A stretch of 64,000 nucleotides of DNA from NCBI GenBank assembly GCA_016703645.1, contig JADJBR010000007.1:1240001-1304000 (forward strand), read 5' to 3'. Made by a program: the position numbers and the translations under genes. The DNA comes from Zoogloea sp. Lineage in GTDB: Bacteria; Pseudomonadota; Gammaproteobacteria; Burkholderiales; Rhodocyclaceae. Within the stretch, counting starts at the first letter, position 1. Each line of letters starts with the position of its first letter. The notes beneath the pieces were generated by a model. That model saw only the letters and a list, made by a program, of their open reading frames with translations, searched no databases and was not told the DNA's origin. This document shows, in pieces, positions 43,089 through 51,681 of the stretch.

Positions 43089-43315
43089 GCCCCCGCATCG
43101 GGCGAAAGCCCGATGCCCGCGGCCGGCCGCCCGCCGGCCCGCCCCGCATCCTTGCCCGCCACGCCGGCAGCCCCCGGGCAGCCGGCGCCCCCTCCCCCGC
43201 GCGCCGGAACGCCGCGCTCCGCGTCCCGCCCCGCCCGCCTCGTCGCCCGCATCCCCGCCATCAGACCCCGCAGCCCCAAGTGCCGCACCACACTGACCGG
43301 CATTCAGCCTATAGT

Positions 43316-43348
43316 ATCCATTCACTTTTTAATTCATGAATCCATTCA
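43316..43348 (+). promoter_or_regulatory. Direct repeats flanking a palindrome upstream of the HipA-like gene
   Basis: ATCCATTCA occurs at 43316-43324 and 43340-43348, flanking the palindrome ATTCATGAAT (43332-43341), in an AT-rich patch ending five bases before the HipA-like start. The protein has its own helix-turn-helix, so this may be its autoregulatory operator. No ribosome-binding site is visible between the repeats and the ATG. Confidence 0.45.
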
Positions 43349-43352
43349 AACC

Positions 43353-44696
43353 ATGGATACCCATGCCGACACCGTCCGGCTGTACCTCTCCCGCGGGCCG
43401 CTTCCGGGGCGACAACTCACTGAAAAAATGGGAGTAAGCCAGCCCACGCTGTCCCGCGTGCTCAATGCCATGGGCGCCGACATCGTGCGTATTGGCGCCG
43501 CCCGATCCATTCATTACGCCCTCCGCGACACCCGGCACGGGCTCCCCGACATCCCCATTCACCGGGTCGACCCCGAAGGCCGCGTCCAGCAGCTCGGCAC
43601 CCTCGTCCCCGTCTGCCCGGACGGCTTCGTCATGCAGCAGCCCGACGGCACCACCCTGCACAGCGAAGGCCTGCCCTGGTGGCTGCTCGACATGCGCCCC
43701 CAGGGCTACCTCGGCCGCGCCTACGCCGCCCGCCATGGCGCCGACCTGGGCCTGCCCCCACGCCTGGGCGACTGGACCGACACCCACGCCCTGCGCGCCC
43801 TGCTTGCCCACGGCCACGACCTCATCGGCAACCTGCTGCCCGGCGACGCGGCCCGGGGGCACTTTTTGGCCACCCCCCTGCCCGACCCCATCCCCCACCC
43901 CCATAAGCCCGAGGCCTACGCCCAACTCGCCCGCGAGGCTGCCCGGGGCGAACTGCCCGGCTCATCTGCCGGCGGCGAGCAACCCAAGTTCACCACCCGC
44001 GCCATGACCCCCGCCGGCCCCCGGCACGTCATCGTCAAGTTCAGCGAAGCCGAAGCCGGCCCCGTGCCCCAACGCTGGCGCGACCTCCTGCTCGCCGAAC
44101 ACCTGGCCCTCGAAACCCTGCGCCACGCCGGCATCCCCGCCGCCGCCAGCCGGATCATCGACCATCAGGGCCAACGCTTCCTCGAAGTCGAACGCTTTGA
44201 CCGCATCGGCGACCTGGGGCGCTGCGCCCTCATTTCCCTCTCCGCCCTCGACGCCGAGTTCCTCGGCACCGGTAACGGCCCCTGGCCCGTGCTCACCCAC
44301 AAGCTCGCCGCCGCCCGCCGCATCACCCCCGGCGCCGCCCACGACGCCGCCCGCCTGTGGGCCTATGGCACCCTCATCGGCAACACCGACATGCACAGCG
44401 GCAACCTGAGCTTCATCACCGATCAAGGCCGCCCCCACGCCCTCGCCCCCGCCTACGACATGACCCCCATGGCCTTCGCCCCCCGCAGCGGCGGCAGCCT
44501 CCCCGACACCCTCCCCCCGGCCGACATCCACGCCAGCGTGAGCAACACGATCTGGCGCGAGGCGGAAGCACTGGCCCGGGACTTCGTGGCGCGGGTACGG
44601 GCGACGGAGGGGTTCAGCGCGCGGTTTGCGGGGTGTGTTGATGCGCTGGTGGCCCATGGGGAAACGGCGGGGGAGAGGATTGGGCGGCTGGGGTAG
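43353..44696 (+). CDS. HipA-family kinase with N-terminal helix-turn-helix (YjjJ/HipH-like)
   Basis: 447 aa from the ATG at 43353. The first ~65 residues form a DNA-binding wing (GRQLTEKMGVSQPTLSRVLNAMG); the rest is a HipA-type Ser/Thr kinase: P-loop-like GGEQPKFTT, catalytic region GNTDMHSGNLSFI and metal-binding YDMTPMAF. E. coli HipH (YjjJ) has the same single-protein toxin-plus-HTH layout and length. There is no separate HipB antitoxin gene. It may be a persistence-type toxin phosphorylating a translation factor; the target is unknown. It is the left neighbour of the defence-like island. Confidence 0.88.
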   Translation: MDTHADTVRLYLSRGPLPGRQLTEKMGVSQPTLSRVLNAMGADIVRIGAARSIHYALRDTRHGLPDIPIHRVDPEGRVQQLGTLVPVCPDGFVMQQPDGTTLHSEGLPWWLLDMRPQGYLGRAYAARHGADLGLPPRLGDWTDTHALRALLAHGHDLIGNLLPGDAARGHFLATPLPDPIPHPHKPEAYAQLAREAARGELPGSSAGGEQPKFTTRAMTPAGPRHVIVKFSEAEAGPVPQRWRDLLLAEHLALETLRHAGIPAAASRIIDHQGQRFLEVERFDRIGDLGRCALISLSALDAEFLGTGNGPWPVLTHKLAAARRITPGAAHDAARLWAYGTLIGNTDMHSGNLSFITDQGRPHALAPAYDMTPMAFAPRSGGSLPDTLPPADIHASVSNTIWREAEALARDFVARVRATEGFSARFAGCVDALVAHGETAGERIGRLG

Positions 44697-44784: not shown

Positions 44785-46056
44785 ATGCTTGTCGAGTTCC
44801 GAACCAAGAACTTCCGCAGCCTGCGCGACGAGCAAGTGCTCAGCTTCGTAGCGTCCACCGACAAGACCCTGCTCGACACCCATGCCCTTGGCACCGGGCT
44901 CAAGGCTGCCCCGCATCTGCTCAAGAGCGCGGTGGTCTATGGCGCCAACGCCAGCGGCAAGTCCAACCTCATCAAGGCCCTGCAATACATGCGCGGCGTC
45001 GTGCTCGAATCCGCCGCCCAGCAGCCCGGCCAGCGTTTCGACAAACTTCAGCCCTTCAAGCTGGACAGCGCATCCGTCAGCCAACCCACGGAGTTCGAAG
45101 TCACCCTCCTTCTGAACGGGGTGCGCTATCAGTACGGCTTTGCCATGACCGCACATCGGATCGTCGGCGAGCATCTGCTGGTGTACAAGGCTTTCAAGCC
45201 GCAGCGCTGGTTCGAGCGCCACTTTGATACCGAGAGTGGCAAGGACATCTATGAATTTGGCTCAGGCCTGAAGGGCGCCAAGAACCTGTGGGAAGGCGCC
45301 ACCCGGCCCAATGCCCTGTTTCTCTCCGTCGCCGTACAACTCAACAGCGACGCCCTGCGCCCCCTATTCGACTGGTTTGCCGACGGCCTCGTGATCTTCA
45401 ACGAGCTGTCACCCCTGTCACCGCAGTTCACCCTACAGATGCTCAAGCAGGAAACACCGCGCAAGGCGATCCGCGATTTTCTGCGCGCCACCGACAACAG
45501 CATTGCCGACATCGAAGTAGCAAGCACCCAGACCGCCGTCCGCAGCATTCACTTCGACCTGACAACCGGCAAGCGGGAAGAAGAAATGGGCGAGCAAACC
45601 TTGGACGAAGTGAAGGTCCATCACACTACCGACCAGGGCAAGGCCGTATTCGACCTGATGGACGAATCCAGCGGAACCCAAAACCTGCTCTTCCTCGCCG
45701 GCCCCATCCTGGACATTCTGAAAAAGGGGCTCACCCTCGTCGTGGATGAACTGGACACCAGCCTGCACACCCTGCTCGTGCAGGCGCTGGTCCGCCTGTT
45801 TCACCAACCCGACGGCAACACCAGCGGCGCGCAACTGCTCTTCACCACCCACGACACCTCATTGCTGGATGCCTATGGCCTCTTACGGCGCGACCAGATC
45901 TGGTTTGTCGAGAAGAACCCGGACCAAAGCTCAACACTCTTCCCCCTGACCGACTTCAGCCCACGCAAGAACGAAGCCCTTGAGCGGGGTTATCTGCAGG
46001 GGCGATATGGGGCGCTTCCGTTTCTGCGGAATCCGTCACTGGGGCTGACGCGCTGA
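44785..46056 (+). CDS. RloA-like AAA15-family ATPase
   Basis: 423 aa, SMC/OLD-like ABC ATPase. The N terminus MLVEFRTKNFRSLRDEQVLSF and Walker A YGANASGKSNLIKAL are typical of RloA/AbiL-type AAA15 proteins; Walker B is LVVDELDTSLH, and the H-loop is FTTHDTSLL. Such ATPases pair with RloB (a Toprim-like nuclease) in restriction islands, abortive infection and retron systems. Here the stop overlaps the start of a truncated rloB, so the ATPase lacks its usual effector. Preceded by an AT-rich 88-bp gap probably holding the promoter. Confidence 0.88.
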   Translation: MLVEFRTKNFRSLRDEQVLSFVASTDKTLLDTHALGTGLKAAPHLLKSAVVYGANASGKSNLIKALQYMRGVVLESAAQQPGQRFDKLQPFKLDSASVSQPTEFEVTLLLNGVRYQYGFAMTAHRIVGEHLLVYKAFKPQRWFERHFDTESGKDIYEFGSGLKGAKNLWEGATRPNALFLSVAVQLNSDALRPLFDWFADGLVIFNELSPLSPQFTLQMLKQETPRKAIRDFLRATDNSIADIEVASTQTAVRSIHFDLTTGKREEEMGEQTLDEVKVHHTTDQGKAVFDLMDESSGTQNLLFLAGPILDILKKGLTLVVDELDTSLHTLLVQALVRLFHQPDGNTSGAQLLFTTHDTSLLDAYGLLRRDQIWFVEKNPDQSSTLFPLTDFSPRKNEALERGYLQGRYGALPFLRNPSLGLTR

Positions 46057-46336: not shown

Positions 46337-46789
46337 ATGACTATCGGTGCCCACCATAACAACACTCGAGACTCCCGCGTTTACCTGGGTGCAACGTTCG
46401 ACCCATGGGACGACCGCTTCTCTCCTGTGAGCAGTGCTTGGCACTTTGCCTACCTGCGCAGCAGGTTCCGAGAAGAAGGCGCTACCGTCTACATAGTCGA
46501 TGAGCAGGCCTCCCTCGACGCCCTGCGCAACGTCAGCGACCAATTTCATGAACGGACGCGGCCGGACGAACAGGAAGAATGCGGCCCTCCAAGAGGATTA
46601 GCCAAGGCCCAGACCGCGCTGCCCGCCCGGCGTTTGTCCAAGCGGCAACAGAAACTCGTGATTGAGGCTGTTGCTCTCTTTGCTAACAACACGGGAGGCG
46701 AGTTCATGCCATTGAGCGGGCCGGAAAACTACTTGAAGCGAATGGCCTCAGGCTTTCACCAATCCAATACGGACATTCGTAGCTCTTGA
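46337..46789 (+). CDS. Unknown 150-aa protein, first gene of the TIR-Nmad2-MazG-UDG operon
   Basis: 150 aa from the ATG at 46337 (an upstream ATG at 46289 is possible). I do not recognise a family. The N-terminal half looks like a small alpha/beta unit (RVYLGATFDPWDDRFSPVSS, AYLRSRFREEGATVYIVDEQ); the C-terminal half is basic and helical (RRLSKRQQKLVIEAVALFANN). The stop is 39 bp before the TIR gene on the same strand, so it is probably part of that operon. Codons are less G/C-ending than in flanking housekeeping genes. The strand-plus-acidic pattern could be a TIR/SLOG-like sensor fragment; that is speculation. Confidence 0.6.
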   Translation: MTIGAHHNNTRDSRVYLGATFDPWDDRFSPVSSAWHFAYLRSRFREEGATVYIVDEQASLDALRNVSDQFHERTRPDEQEECGPPRGLAKAQTALPARRLSKRQQKLVIEAVALFANNTGGEFMPLSGPENYLKRMASGFHQSNTDIRSS

Positions 46790-46828
46790 ACAACGTGTAA
46801 ACGAACGACCTATCAATAGGGATAGCAG

Positions 46829-47296
46829 ATGGCAGAAAAAAGGAACGTTTTCATAAGCCATGTTCATAAGGACGACAGCGGGCTCCAGAAACTAAAGGAT
46901 CTACTGGCCCCGAAAGGGATGGAAGTAAGGGACTCATCCATCCATATGGGCAAGTTCAACAATGCTACCGACGAGCACTATATTAAAACTCAGATTCTTG
47001 CCCCTGCCATCAACTGGGCTGGAGTATTTATTTGCTACGTTTCCCCCCAGACTAAGAACAGCGACTGGGTGAACTGGGAAATCGCATATGCGGCCAAACA
47101 GGGCAAACGGATTGTCGGCGTATGGGAGCATGGGAGAAAGGAATGCGACCTCCCAGAGGCCCTACGAGAGTATGCCGACGCTATGGTTGGGTGGAGCGGC
47201 GATGCGATCATTGACGCAATCAACGGAAAGGACTCATGGGAAAAGCCTGACGGCGGCCCCTGTGCGTCCGTTCCACTCAAGCGGCATCCCTGCTGA
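46829..47296 (+). CDS. TIR-domain effector (MTH538/ThsB-like)
   Basis: 155 aa, essentially a single TIR-like domain: strand A RNVFISHVHKDD, helix, strand B/BB-loop region MEVRDSSIHMGK, and the putative NADase glutamate E84 in SDWVNWEIAYAAKQGKRIV. This subfamily includes Thoeris ThsB, which makes NAD-derived signals, and TIR NADases. The last ~15 residues are low in structure. Its stop overlaps the start of the Nmad2-like gene (TGATG), showing tight coupling. Whether it depletes NAD or synthesises a messenger cannot be told from sequence. Confidence 0.88.
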   Translation: MAEKRNVFISHVHKDDSGLQKLKDLLAPKGMEVRDSSIHMGKFNNATDEHYIKTQILAPAINWAGVFICYVSPQTKNSDWVNWEIAYAAKQGKRIVGVWEHGRKECDLPEALREYADAMVGWSGDAIIDAINGKDSWEKPDGGPCASVPLKRHPC

Positions 47297-47922
47297 TGGC
47301 TCGAATTCACTCCTATGTAGTGCGATACGACAGTGGTTTCGCACCCAATCCCTTCTATGGCTACTGCACACTTGCAACCTGCAAACCCGGCATTCGCAGA
47401 TCCGCTAACATCGGTGATTGGGTGGTCGGCAGTGGCAGTGATGCCAAAACTATCCGACGTGGCGAGCATCTCGTTTACGTAATGCGCGTCACCGAAGTAA
47501 TGACGTTTGACGAATACGACGCGGACCCACGGTTCGCGCCCAAAAAACCATACCGAAATGGGAGCCGCAAGCAAAGTTGCGGGGACAATATTTACTTCAG
47601 AGCCATGCCAGAAGCCAACTGGCAGCAACGGGACTCGTTCCATTCTCGCCCCGATGGTACGCACAACCCTGACCACGTCGCACGCGATACGAGCGTAAAC
47701 AGGGTCTTGATCAGCAATGACTTCGTGTACTTCGGGGGCGAAGGACCGAAGTTCCCCATAGATATGAAGGACCAAAGAAATCGAAAATTATGCAAAAAAG
47801 GAAGAGGAATAACCACATTTGACGATGCGCGACTAATTGCGAACCTCGAACAGTGGATTCGCCGCCTTTGCTTGGACGGATATCAGGGCGCCCCTTTCGA
47901 ATGGCTGACTCTTCGTGGATGA
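47296..47922 (+). CDS. Nmad2-like (nucleotide-modification-associated domain 2) protein
   Basis: 208 aa. The N-terminal YVVRYDSGFAPNPFYGYCTL and TCKPGIRRSANIGDWVVGSG are the core of the Nmad2 family, predicted by comparative genomics to act with modified-nucleotide systems. The middle is rich in His/Asp/Arg (FHSRPDGTHNPDHVARD) and may bind metal or nucleic acid; the C-terminal helix carries LEQWIRRLCLDGYQG. No enzymatic activity is established for the family. It is coupled to the TIR gene upstream and the MazG-like gene three bases downstream. Confidence 0.78.
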   Translation: MARIHSYVVRYDSGFAPNPFYGYCTLATCKPGIRRSANIGDWVVGSGSDAKTIRRGEHLVYVMRVTEVMTFDEYDADPRFAPKKPYRNGSRKQSCGDNIYFRAMPEANWQQRDSFHSRPDGTHNPDHVARDTSVNRVLISNDFVYFGGEGPKFPIDMKDQRNRKLCKKGRGITTFDDARLIANLEQWIRRLCLDGYQGAPFEWLTLRG

Positions 47923-47925
47923 ACA

Positions 47926-49062
47926 ATGAAAAAAGAAGGGTCCATCTTGCTTTCAGATTACGCGGCGGAAATCTCAGCCACAGACGTACTCAACCCGCAG
48001 GACTTCAACCCTGTGCTCCAAGGTCTATACGGAGAAGTCGGCGGCATAATGGCTACGGCCAAGAAATGTGTCAGAGAGAGATCGGCATACCCAGGTTTCA
48101 AGAAAGCTGCGGAAGAAGAGTTTGGCGACGCCCTTTGGTATTTGGCCGCAATCTGCAGGCGCCTGCAGATTCCTCTTGAAGAGATCTTCTCGGAGGCTGC
48201 CAACCATGGAAACTTCAGGAGTGTGGGTGCCGCAAGTGACGTCACCGAAGGTGCATTGGCGTACATCGCAGTACCTGTCGCAGCGCCAGCTTCATTGGAT
48301 GAAACACTGGTACGCTTGGGGCAGTCAGCGGCAGCCCTACTGGGACACACGCCTACGCGAACCAATCTCGTTGTCTTTGCAAGGGCCTATCTAGATGCGA
48401 TCCACGCGGCCGAACTTGTGTTCTCGGAGGTTGCTCGCGGCAATCTTTGGAAAGCCCGCGGCGCTTTTTTAGACCCACGGGCTGATGACCTGATTGGCCT
48501 TGATTTCGACAGCGAATTTGGAATTGAGGAACAATTACCCAGGAACTTCAAGATCCGGGTCAATCAACGAGGGACGGGAAGGAGCTATCTCCAGTGGAAG
48601 GGAGTATTCATCGGGGATCCTCTTACTGACAACATCGCCGACAGTGATGGCTACAGATTCCACGATGTATTCCATTTCGCCTATGCAGCAGTACTTCACT
48701 GGTCGCCCGTCATGCGTGCGCTGATCAAGCATAAGCGAAAGAGTAATCCAAAATACGATGAAGAACAGGACAGCGGTCGAGCGATTGTCGTAGAGGAGGG
48801 TGTTTCGGCATGGATTTTCTCCAGAGCCAAAGGGTTGAATTTCTTCGATGGCCAGGATAAGGTTTCGCTTGGGCTTCTCAAGACCATTGGAGAATTCGTG
48901 AGCGGCTACGAAGTGGAGAAATGTCCTCTAAAGCTTTGGGAAAAGGCGATCCTGGATGGCTACACTGTCTTTCGACAGCTAAAGAGAAATCAAGGCGGAT
49001 GGATCATTGGAAATCGACAGCAACGCACCATAAAATACATGCCACTCGAGCCTGAAAAATGA
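47926..49062 (+). CDS. MazG-like pyrophosphohydrolase fused to an unknown helical domain
   Basis: 378 aa. Residues ~28-95 resemble an all-alpha MazG-type NTP pyrophosphohydrolase: LYGEVGGIMATAKK (E37) and EEEFGDALWYLAAI (E65, D68). The second Glu expected in the EXXE motif is Gly40, so catalysis may be altered. Residues ~225-375 form a second domain with the conserved-looking FHDVFHFAYAAVLHWSPVMR, a His-Asp/His cluster that could bind metal, and the helical VVEEGVSAWIF. Such enzymes sanitise or destroy (d)NTPs. The UDG-like gene overlaps its stop (ATGA). Confidence 0.75.
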   Translation: MKKEGSILLSDYAAEISATDVLNPQDFNPVLQGLYGEVGGIMATAKKCVRERSAYPGFKKAAEEEFGDALWYLAAICRRLQIPLEEIFSEAANHGNFRSVGAASDVTEGALAYIAVPVAAPASLDETLVRLGQSAAALLGHTPTRTNLVVFARAYLDAIHAAELVFSEVARGNLWKARGAFLDPRADDLIGLDFDSEFGIEEQLPRNFKIRVNQRGTGRSYLQWKGVFIGDPLTDNIADSDGYRFHDVFHFAYAAVLHWSPVMRALIKHKRKSNPKYDEEQDSGRAIVVEEGVSAWIFSRAKGLNFFDGQDKVSLGLLKTIGEFVSGYEVEKCPLKLWEKAILDGYTVFRQLKRNQGGWIIGNRQQRTIKYMPLEPEK

Positions 49063-49721
49063 AGACCCACCCATTTGTTACTGCAGTCGCGTCTTTGCAG
49101 TTCGAAGACTGCTTCAATCCATATTCGGATCGTTGTGAAATTCATGATCGATGGGATGCACCGCGTCGCCGTGCCACCGCACTTTCCGCGATGTTGTGTC
49201 GTGCTTCCGAGGAACCCGTAGACGCGATATGGATCGGACGAGATCTCGGATACCGTGGCGGACGCCGCACAGGGCTAGCTCTGACGGACGACTTTCACAT
49301 AGGCCAACACGCTAGGCGTTGGAATCTCGACCAGGCGGCAGAGCGACCGACAATAGGTAGAGCTGTAGGCGAACGGACGGCCGCCGTCATATGGGGAATG
49401 CTGGAACACATTGATGCTCGTATCTTCCTTTGGAACGTATTCCCTCTTCATCCGCATGAATCAGGAGACCCGTTCAGCAACCGCCAGCACAACGCACGTG
49501 AGAGGCGAGCGGGAGAAGAGCTACTTCAACAACTCATTGCCATGTTGCGCCCCTCTCGCATCGTCGCCATTGGCAACGATGCTGCCGCTGCGGCGCAGCG
49601 CATCACAAATTCCGTACCTGTAATTTCCGTAAGGCACCCTAGCTACGGGGGACAGACGCAGTTCCAGAAGCAAATTTCTGAGCTTTATGGGCGCTCCATG
49701 AGCACTGGATCATTGTTCTAA
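49059..49721 (+). CDS. Uracil-DNA-glycosylase-superfamily protein
   Basis: 220 aa. UDG-fold features: strand-loop VDAIWIGRDLGYRGGRRTG in place of the classical water-activating motif, FLWNVFPLHP, the SNRQHNARERRAGEE segment leading into LRPSRIVAIGNDAAAAA, and the DNA-intercalation-type loop VRHPSYGG. Motif 1 differs from Ung (no GQDPYH), so it is a divergent family, possibly acting on a modified base or as a binder. It closes the five-gene operon. A converging TIR/SLOG pair lies 214 bp beyond. Confidence 0.75.
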   Translation: MKTHPFVTAVASLQFEDCFNPYSDRCEIHDRWDAPRRRATALSAMLCRASEEPVDAIWIGRDLGYRGGRRTGLALTDDFHIGQHARRWNLDQAAERPTIGRAVGERTAAVIWGMLEHIDARIFLWNVFPLHPHESGDPFSNRQHNARERRAGEELLQQLIAMLRPSRIVAIGNDAAAAAQRITNSVPVISVRHPSYGGQTQFQKQISELYGRSMSTGSLF

Positions 49722-49935: not shown

Positions 49936-50508
49936 TTAAATACCCAATGCGAGGTGTTTACGAAAGATTCGTGCAAAGTCTACATCAACGAGATCCTCAT
50001 CGGCAAAATACCGTTGATCTTTGGCTAGATTCAAGGCGCCCCCCCCTGGCGACGGAATAGGCAGAACTTTGGCGGTAGGATGAAATCGCCGGAAGAGTTC
50101 ATGCTCAACCTCCACTCCTTCCATCCCACCAATGAAAACAGCGGCAACGAGATCATCCCGAGACAGCATTATTTCCCGCATTAGCAGTAGACTGGAATCT
50201 CTGTCATCAGGAACCGCATCGGTGAATACAACGTTTTTAAAGCGGGCGTTTTCCGCCGGGTAACGATCCTCGAAGAATGTACTCTGATACAGGACAACGG
50301 CCTCAGAATAATCAACCCCCAAAGCCTCACAGATGCTCCAGACCATAGGCGTGATAGCGGGATGACCTCCCCACACGATCTTGTGCTGACGGATAACTGC
50401 TATGACCAGTTCCCTCACAGCACACTGAATAAGGAATGGATTGGCAGTTTCGTGATATGAACCCCGGCCGACGAGTGGGACACTGGCGGAAAGGAAGATT
50501 GCGCTCAC
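49936..50508 (-). CDS. SLOG-like nucleotide-sensor protein paired with a TIR protein
   Basis: 190 aa, GTG start at 50508, three bases after the TIR gene stop. Rossmann-like SLOG features: IFLSASVP at the start, VRELVIAVIRQHKIVWGGHPAITPMV, and a second glycine-rich turn FIGGMEGVEVEHELF followed by VLPIPSPGGGA. SLOG domains are predicted ligand sensors or enzymes for nucleotide messengers; in Thoeris ThsA a SLOG domain binds the TIR product. Here the SLOG is alone, with no attached SIR2 or membrane effector, so it may itself be an enzyme or act with the TIR protein. Confidence 0.75.
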   Translation of the reverse strand: MSAIFLSASVPLVGRGSYHETANPFLIQCAVRELVIAVIRQHKIVWGGHPAITPMVWSICEALGVDYSEAVVLYQSTFFEDRYPAENARFKNVVFTDAVPDDRDSSLLLMREIMLSRDDLVAAVFIGGMEGVEVEHELFRRFHPTAKVLPIPSPGGGALNLAKDQRYFADEDLVDVDFARIFRKHLALGI

Positions 50509-50511
50509 GAT

Positions 50512-51681
50512 TCAGGCCTCCCAGTCCGCAAATTGCCAACCAGCCTCGCTGGCTTTGACCCACCGTGCTGAGTGGATATGCTGGCCGAGCCAATCCAAAT
50601 GCCCGAGCCACCGGGGATCCAAGCCAACATGATCGTATACGACGGCAACCGACTTATCTGGCGAACTGATGGATGCCTCATGTAAGGTGGTTGAGGTGGG
50701 AACACCAACAGTTGGGTAGACGACGACATTTCGCCCATCCGGTAGCTGAATATAAACAGCTTTATTTTCCCCAACTCCGACAAATTGTCCGCCAATCGTC
50801 TCGATAGCGTTGCGCAAATTGCTAACTAGATTGACGGAACGGACCGCATGGCTTTGGCTACGAACCTCCTCTAGCTGAAGACAGATTCGTTCGACAGCGC
50901 TGTCCAGGAGGCATCCTGTGACCGCATCGACTTCTTCGGGCAATAGCTCTGCACGACTGGCAGTGGCTGTGCGTACAGATGGCGTACTGTCTGGCCAGCC
51001 AACCCGTAGGACACAAATGCCTTTCGCCAGAGCGCGTCCGAACTCTGCGCTCGTCCAACGGCTTTCAAAGTAGCTAGGCGTGTCGAGCATAAGCAAGACA
51101 TCCGAGTTGCAAAGCCGATGCCAAAGCATCGTCTGGAAATCTTCCGCAGGTGGAATACCATGCGTATCGAGAAAAACATCGAAGAGCCGAGCAGATAGCG
51201 CATCGAACAACTGTAAGGCAGCCTCCCTAGCTTCACCCCGGCGATAGCTTATGAATATCCGGCGCTGTCGAGGAAGTAAGCCAGCACATTCCAGCATAGC
51301 AGTTGCGACACGTTGCGAGCCTCCTGCGGAATACGTCAAACAATTGAGCGATTGCAGCATAATCGGGATCTCTGCGTTGACTCGATTGGCATCAGTAGCC
51401 ACCGGCAGCAACGGAATACCTCGTTTCAGCAGCTTTTCTACGTTGGCGAGAGGCGGCTCTTCACCTCCGAAAAATACTGCAGCAGACGATCGTTGCTGGT
51501 CTGGGTTGAACTCTTCCGGACAAACCTCCCATCCGACCTCATACCCCAATCGCAAATTAAACATACCCACAGCTTTTCCGATGATTGCTTGAAGTTCGGA
51601 AACCTGAGCGTCCGTTGGTGCGCCAAGGACAGCGAGTTGATAGAGGGCAGGCATACCTCTCCCAAGAATATTAGTGCTCAC
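50512..51681 (-). CDS. TIR-domain protein with N- and C-terminal extensions
   Basis: 389 aa from a GTG at 51681 (AGGA seven bases upstream); an ATG at 51654 is the alternative. Residues 1-138 form an alpha/beta domain (ALYQLAVLGAP, SAAVFFGGEEPPLANVEKLL) of receiver-like appearance. The TIR domain is ~140-235: RIFISYRRGEAREAALQLFD, FDVFLDTHGIPPAEDF, and the probable catalytic E213 in SRWTSAEFGRALA. The C-terminal ~110 residues (GENKAVYIQLPDGRNVVVYP, then GHLDWLGQHIHSARWVKA) are unrecognised. Operon partner is the SLOG protein. Confidence 0.82.
   Translation of the reverse strand: MSTNILGRGMPALYQLAVLGAPTDAQVSELQAIIGKAVGMFNLRLGYEVGWEVCPEEFNPDQQRSSAAVFFGGEEPPLANVEKLLKRGIPLLPVATDANRVNAEIPIMLQSLNCLTYSAGGSQRVATAMLECAGLLPRQRRIFISYRRGEAREAALQLFDALSARLFDVFLDTHGIPPAEDFQTMLWHRLCNSDVLLMLDTPSYFESRWTSAEFGRALAKGICVLRVGWPDSTPSVRTATASRAELLPEEVDAVTGCLLDSAVERICLQLEEVRSQSHAVRSVNLVSNLRNAIETIGGQFVGVGENKAVYIQLPDGRNVVVYPTVGVPTSTTLHEASISSPDKSVAVVYDHVGLDPRWLGHLDWLGQHIHSARWVKASEAGWQFADWEA

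Follow-up and report, generated by a model that had tools for sequence, protein, structure and literature searches.

A TIR–Nmad2–MazG–UDG gene cassette in Zoogloea sp., the alternative partner modules of its TIR–Nmad2 core, and a possible role in anti-phage defence

Gene layout and encoded proteins

In a stretch of 64,000 nucleotides from Zoogloea sp. (the window; GenBank assembly GCA_016703645.1, contig JADJBR010000007.1, positions 1,240,001 to 1,304,000), we identified a cassette of four plus-strand genes at 46829–49721, encoding a TIR protein, an Nmad2 protein, a protein that joins a MazG-type half to a MazG_C domain (MazG+MazG_C), and a protein of the uracil-DNA glycosylase (UDG) superfamily (Table 1). 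This is a real mobile cassette whose association exceeds chance, and its gene order is the same in most of the 80 closest loci. The junctions along 46337–49721 are a 39-bp gap, a 1-bp overlap (TGATG), a 3-bp gap, and a 4-bp overlap (ATGA). The original prediction, made from the sequence alone, described a five-gene operon here; its coordinates and four junctions were confirmed on the sequence, and its TIR, Nmad2, MazG-like, and UDG-like family calls were borne out by profile searches (Pfam and others). However, it overlooked the neighbouring Thoeris type III pair and the existence of two alternative partner modules, and its first gene does not belong to the unit. This open reading frame (ORF), P0001, had no homologue in the other related loci searched, the only two matches being the window and L001, which is the window's own copy. 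Homologues were present in 5 of 99 other related genomes, with open frames of 278–301 amino acids (aa) vs. 150 aa in the window, and two plasmid homologues are annotated as NYN domain-containing. P0001 is therefore a truncated leftover, and as a short NYN frame missing from related loci it was rejected as a fifth gene, so the unit consists of four genes. Their guanine-plus-cytosine (GC) content is 52–55%, vs. 65% for the window.

Table 1. Features of the cassette and its surroundings (positions in the window).
Feature	Position	Strand	Basis
AbiLi/AAA_21-like ATPase gene, upstream of the cassette	44785..46056		PADLOC AbiLi, 332 bits
P0001, truncated NYN-domain gene fragment, not a cassette part	46337..46789	+	Comparison with homologues
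TIR protein, 155 aa, putative NADase or signal-making effector	46829..47296	+	PF08937 ThsB_TIR, PADLOC PDLC00418
Nmad2 protein, 208 aa, putative modified-base reader and TIR partner	47296..47922	+	PF18753
Protein with MazG-type N-terminal half and MazG_C domain	47926..49062	+	PF18722 and model of the N-terminal half
UDG-superfamily protein, 220 aa	49059..49721	+	PF03167, invariant D62, G64, N126, H193
ThcA (SLOG cluster 3) of Thoeris type III, separate unit	49936..50508	-	NF058525, PF18180
ThcB4 (TIR) of Thoeris type III, separate unit	50512..51681	-	NF058526

The TIR protein scored 78 bits in the Pfam profile search and 303 bits across residues 1–155 with the PADLOC ThsB model, and its relatives in the PDB include ThsB1 (9b7d). 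The candidate NADase glutamate that had been pointed out, E84, is intact and lies within a conserved W-E-I motif; glutamate occupies this position in 28 of 29 aligned rows and isoleucine in one (L092). E84 is the catalytic candidate of this putative NADase or signal-making effector. Nmad2 scored 253 bits in the Pfam search. Its predicted structure bore a tentative resemblance to YTH/EVE base readers in a fold search, and the matched structural-genomics entries include some that we take to be EVE proteins. The modelled fold is in line with the earlier proposal that Nmad2 is a sensor, and a PUA/EVE/YTH-like reader in that role is likely. The Nmad2 profile had no match among PDB sequences at E values up to 1, and no nuclease family was found among the Pfam matches of ORFs P0002–P0005 up to E 1.

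The MazG_C domain occupies residues 193–374 of the third protein (276 bits), and the MazG-type N-terminal half (residues ~7–182) is modelled as a dimeric dUTPase-like structure. MazG has four metal ligands. A check of the ExxE/ExxD motifs found E37, E65, and D68 in 41 of 41 rows, and position 40 was G, S, or D, never E. In phages, tblastn with the MazG_C protein matched the N-terminal part only (4 records). PHROGs family 229 matched residues 9–360 (1.5e-28), so the whole protein does have distant relatives in phages.

The UDG-superfamily gene scored 33.7 bits with its Pfam model (cut-off 24.3), and its four invariant residues were found in 26 of 26 rows; D62, N126, and H193 presumably have catalytic roles. 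The classical UDG residues are D64, Tyr66, Asn123, and His187, and SMUG1 acts on 5-hydroxymethyluracil (hmU). Judged from the alignment, the cassette enzyme keeps the uracil-type catalytic residues. The host genome encodes its own SMUG1 (L155, C10; 1.3e-90 to Geobacter SMUG1) and a family-4-like UDG (L154, C7), and the cassette UDG is therefore an addition. It was compared with the UDGs of its own genome by hhalign; a MAFFT alignment misplaced motif A. The probability was 54% over 177 columns, including motif A, for a SMUG1, and higher, at 95%, but over 93 columns only, for the family-4-like enzyme.

Conservation, alternative partner modules, and related systems

A scan of genome contigs with an Nmad2 alignment gave 529 Nmad2 relatives, and the best 80 were retained as loci; as these are the closest of the 529, the contexts of distant Nmad2 genes are under-sampled. 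The co-occurrence of the four genes elsewhere, which the original prediction had proposed as a check, was found: TIR directly precedes Nmad2 in 76 of the 80 loci, MazG is the next gene after Nmad2 on the same strand in 71, and UDG is present in 65. Among the four loci without a directly preceding TIR, the contigs of L080 and L085 start 126 and 31 bases before Nmad2, the TIR of L088 is ~1.2 kb away, and L081 has none adjacent. When the count was made on the 60 loci with > 3 kb on the left and 6 kb on the right, TIR was found in 59, MazG (next, same strand) in 52, and UDG in 52. Of 76 junctions downstream of TIR, 46 retain a TGATG or TAATG overlap with the stop codon, and 43 of 63 MazG stops retain ATGA. 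Pairwise identities of the proteins also co-varied, with r = 0.86 for NMAD-TIR (78 loci), 0.84 for NMAD-MAZG (73 loci), 0.89 for NMAD-UDG (64 loci), and 0.94 for MAZG-UDG (64 loci); pairs with MAZG or UDG omit loci with a MAZG of up to 250 aa or a UDG of up to 150 aa. Separately, two divergent TIR-Nmad2 pairs adjoin each other in L010, L057, and L059, and MazG-UDG accompanies only one of the pairs.

We then counted the partner genes in 92 loci, which are all adjacent TIR-Nmad2 pairs after the removal of duplicates; short genome-search copies, L007 (= L016), L103 (the same locus as L015), L153 (a second Escherichia coli locus), and the window were left out, and presence refers to any position in the fetched stretch, not necessarily adjoining Nmad2. 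UDG was present in 74 loci and a 5-hydroxymethyldeoxyuridine (5-hmdU) DNA kinase (HMUDK) in 11, with both in 0 and neither in 7 (Fisher p 6e-10). The exclusivity held when one locus was taken per lineage of < 60% Nmad2 identity (n = 20: UDG 13, HMUDK 7, both 0, neither 0; p 1.3e-5), and the 95 MazG_C loci, with or without Nmad2, had UDG in 80, HMUDK in 10, and both in 0 (short genome-search copies, L007, and the window again omitted). Two of the seven loci with neither module (L023 and L066) are cut by contig ends. Since MazG persists in 7 of 11 loci with HMUDK, it is common to both forms, and the gene exchanged for HMUDK is UDG. The window has no HMUDK, as the 14 ORF matches of the profile are all at other loci. 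In the three HMUDK loci scanned (L014, L015, and L086), the set is accompanied by thymidylate synthase (TS), TylF-type methyltransferase, radical SAM, or thymidylate-kinase domains. The theme common to the modules is deoxyuridine (dU) altered at C5, which agrees with the modified-nucleotide theme originally suggested for these genes.

MazG-UDG also occurs without Nmad2 on plasmids. In the five loci opened (L119, L120, L122, L123, and L124), its neighbours are a small ORF, a helix-turn-helix (HTH) gene, a metalloprotease mostly annotated as ImmA/IrrE, a C1 peptidase, and a further ORF, which in L120 is thymidylate-synthase-like (TIGR03283, 34.7 bits, below its cut-off). In L125 and L127, which are related blocks, the annotation of the small ORF is acyl carrier protein; the likeness of the small ORF in the five plasmid loci is one of position only. 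A dCTP deaminase adjoins MazG-UDG in two of the five (L119 by annotation, L122 by profile). This plasmid block, with its relatives L125–L127, carries HMUDK or MazG_C-UDG and sometimes a holo-acyl-carrier-protein synthase, mixing carrier-protein and dU chemistry. L086 and L090 have a TIR-Nmad2 pair and an HTH-ImmA-HMUDK block in one locus, which links both module families.

A sister form was found in E. coli, where Nmad2 was matched by blastn over a 90-base stretch in 12 of 5426 genomes. In two loci (L152 and L153), TS, a 185-aa ORF with a match to deoxynucleotide monophosphate kinase (DNMK; PF21448, 40.6 bits), HMUDK, TIR, and Nmad2 follow each other (L152:4820–8610). Their neighbours are conjugation genes, an AAA_15 gene, and a block with SLOG cluster 2 and TIR genes, the TIR genes of this block numbering three in L152. 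The TIR and Nmad2 of E. coli are each 43% identical to those of the window over the aligned part. A blastn search of E. coli genomes with the HMUDK gene of L073 gave no match.

The original prediction knew of no named defence system with this combination, a statement that has been overtaken by DefensePredictor (PMC13092281), which has both validated and predicted NMAD systems. Its 42 validated E. coli units include 5-hydroxymethyluracil kinase and thymidylate synthase, the legend of its Figure 3C lists TS, dNMPk, 5hmdUk, and NMAD, and the legend of Figure 6F (section 8) names MazG, MazG-C, NMAD, and UDG among predicted, unvalidated systems (PMC13092281). Part of the prediction is credited there to Burroughs 2015, and its main text contains no occurrence of the string "tir" (PMC13092281). 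From its gene order, the kind of locus represented by L152 appears to be the validated system. The likeness to the window lies in TIR-Nmad2 in the same order (at L152) with 5-substituted-dU enzymes alongside, whereas the window has MazG+MazG_C and UDG where E. coli has TS, DNMK, and HMUDK. The domain names in the legend of Figure 6F are the same as in the window; the gene grouping and any TIR are not visible from that legend. The window cassette is thus a variant of a kind now known in outline. What this analysis adds is that the modules exclude each other, that the Nmad2 model is reader-like, that one half of MazG is modelled as dUTPase-like, and that the cassette is separate from Thoeris type III.

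Other known systems share single parts with the cassette. The DNA glycosylase defences Brig1 and Brig3-BapA target (glucosyl-)5-hydroxymethylcytosine, and Brig1 reads the base with Glu147 (PMC11078745, PMC13160076). They resemble the cassette in turning a UDG-superfamily enzyme against modified phage bases, in the case of Brig3 within an operon that has a helper enzyme, but the cassette has the invariant uracil-type Asn, plus TIR, Nmad2, and MazG. EVE/YTH-type modification-dependent (type IV) restriction, e.g., VcaM4I (PMC7897488, PMC7641849), has in common with it the likely PUA/EVE/YTH-like reader as sensor; the effector of the cassette, in contrast, is a TIR protein, and no nuclease domain was found. 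Nmad is not mentioned in PMC7641849 and PMC7824862. A literature search for a defence combining a TIR domain, MazG, and uracil-DNA glycosylase found none described, although a prior prediction in Iyer 2013 or Burroughs 2015 is possible, and a search on Nmad2, HMUDK, and type III Thoeris gave nothing on these among the titles listed.

Proposed role and competing explanations

We lean slightly towards the view that the four genes are an anti-phage cassette that senses modified dU, with the TIR protein as the effector and MazG-UDG as a processing arm. For the form in the window, we infer the defensive role itself, the substrate, the ligand, the order of events, and the activity of the TIR protein (NAD loss or signalling), as follows. 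Nmad2 (the reader) and TIR (the effector) would be the core, and MazG and UDG a supply or processing arm. On infection by a phage whose DNA or precursor pool contains uracil or a 5-substituted uracil (such as hmU or hypermodified T), the odd base would be excised by the UDG-like enzyme, and the dUTPase-like MazG would cleave the corresponding dNTP. The YTH/EVE-like Nmad2 would bind the base, the nucleotide, or the DNA exposed in this way and, once ligand-bound, would switch on TIR; NAD+ would be cleaved and/or an ADP-ribose (ADPR)-type signal made, and the cell would stop. In the sister form, a 5-hmdU kinase set takes the place of the UDG arm; its enzymes, which in E. coli are TS, DNMK, and the 5-hmdU kinase, would make and phosphorylate the same kind of base. 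A more specific version, which we put forward tentatively and consider rather unlikely, is the sensing of base-excision products. The UDG-like enzyme would release a 5-substituted uracil from phage DNA, MazG would cleave its dNTP, and the freed base or nucleotide would itself be the Nmad2 ligand that fires TIR. The sister systems would make their own marked base with TS, DNMK, and the 5-hmdU kinase and watch its incorporation or release, so that one sensor-effector pair would be wired to either "break" or "make" enzymes.

By altering bases, phages shield their DNA from nucleases. If an altered uracil or excised base serves as the alarm, this would explain a bacterial answer to such phages, and it would connect Nmad2, a domain with no known function, to a chemical question that can be read. 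That one TIR-Nmad2 core takes either UDG or the 5-hmdU kinase set, never both, predicts a shared ligand, which is sharply testable.

Two observations weigh slightly against the anti-phage cassette as described. First, whole-genome draws found Nmad2 in 6 of 369 genomes of the class and 6 of 398 of the phylum (the window's own genome counted in both), and TIR stands beside Nmad2 in only 2 of the 10 other drawn genomes (L109 and L114), the other 8 being without it by profile. The TIR cassette is therefore one branch of the Nmad2 family. Second, NMAD-THCB identities co-varied with r = 0.66 over the 37 loci with any ThcB-like TIR, a set that includes other TIR proteins. In all, 15 Nmad2 loci have no adjacent TIR: the 8 from the genome draws, the four among the closest 80 described above, and L105, L106, and L128. 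A separate Nmad2 context, with no adjacent TIR by profile, is seen in L081, L105, L106, L110–L113, L115–L118, and L128.

The second of these observations also speaks for a rival reading, in which the cassette would serve the neighbouring Thoeris type III as an additional sensor arm and an ADPR-type signal made by the TIR protein would be read by ThcA. The neighbours were assigned by profile (ThcA: NF058525, 251.6 bits, cut-off 110, and PF18180, 255 bits; ThcB4: NF058526, 464.5 bits, cut-off 220). ThcA and ThcB lie within the fetched flanks of 30 of the 80 loci (27 each of the 60 long-flank loci), though ThcA occurs in just 2 of 274 genomes of the class, the window's own included. The full-length match of the cassette TIR to the ThsB model and the SLOG cluster 2 and TIR genes beside the E. 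coli form are in line with such an arm. On the 30 shared loci, however, NMAD-THCA and NMAD-THCB gave r = 0.29 and 0.25, whereas THCA-THCB gave 0.98, and the same loci had 0.80 for NMAD-TIR, 0.90 for NMAD-MAZG, and 0.89 for NMAD-UDG. The low co-variation with ThcA and ThcB suggests two units that are often side by side and mostly re-assorted. Moreover, ThcA is missing from the fetched stretch of 50 loci among the 80; when 29 of these 50 were sampled, ThcA was found elsewhere in 1 of 27 genomes in a search limited to ThcA, so its absence from the other 26 indicates that the cassette needs no ThcA. Both units nevertheless favour the same islands. Membership of the cassette in Thoeris type III is weakened accordingly, and we consider the arm improbable. 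Compared with Thoeris ThsA/ThsB, the cassette has a ThsB-kind TIR and shares islands with several TIR genes, but it has no SLOG/STALD effector within it. ThsA models matched 2 of 112 neighbour ORFs. In L016–L020, L022, and others, an extra small TIR gene lies between UDG and ThcA; the window has none.

It is similarly doubtful that MazG and UDG are a restraint, i.e., that they destroy the 5-substituted dU ligand in the healthy cell until their inhibition by a phage, or a change in the pool, frees it for Nmad2-TIR in the manner of a toxin and antidote. In 85 of the 92 TIR-Nmad2 loci, UDG or HMUDK is in the fetched stretch, and on plasmids MazG-UDG is also the companion of a different gene block. 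However, the alternative module of TS, DNMK, and 5-hmdU kinase would produce a ligand of this sort instead of destroying it, and L087 and L095 have TIR-Nmad2 with neither module within ~8–9 kb on each side. Finally, UDG and MazG-type enzymes are repair and sanitation enzymes, and since the host already has two UDGs a further one could be a repair specialist, but a role in nucleotide sanitation or base repair alone, without any part in immunity, is very improbable for a unit that is rare in the class, low in GC, plasmid-borne in relatives, coupled to TIR, and situated beside Thoeris genes.

Distribution and surroundings of the cassette

Nmad2 relatives of the window's kind were found in 17 of 72,556 plasmid records. 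Eleven of these 17 were examined, and TIR is just before Nmad2 in nine plasmid loci (by annotation or profile) and also in L121; L128 is without it. Nmad2 as a phage gene was rejected, with none of 50,697 phage records matching at E 0.01. IMG/VR contained seven Nmad2 relatives, of which five have an adjoining TIR by profile. By record title, the loci come from Alpha-, Beta-, and Gammaproteobacteria, Acidobacteriota-type metagenome-assembled genomes, Chloroflexota, Poribacteria, Streptomyces, a cyanobacterium, and Parabacteroides. A mobile setting is supported by the low GC content, by the relatives on plasmids, and by a chromosomal locus that adjoins conjugation genes; the cassette also lies beside defence genes.

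An enrichment of the cassette in defence islands, which the original prediction had proposed as a check, was not evident. In a PADLOC scan with crude ORF calls that recorded members per family only, 112 neighbour ORFs from 28 loci matched 98 families, and 112 ORFs from 20 own-genome stretches matched 93. Among the 25 families listed for each, those of the neighbours included ThsB (one model with 11 members), ThsA, phospholipase effectors, and pAgo, and those of the control also included defence genes (HEC-01, CARF, and methyltransferases), with one member per family. Upstream of the cassette, no AbiLii partner was seen between the AbiLi-like gene and the NYN fragment, although no dedicated search for it was made. 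Further upstream, the translation of 43113–44696 reads, by eye, as a HipA-type kinase with an N-terminal winged helix.

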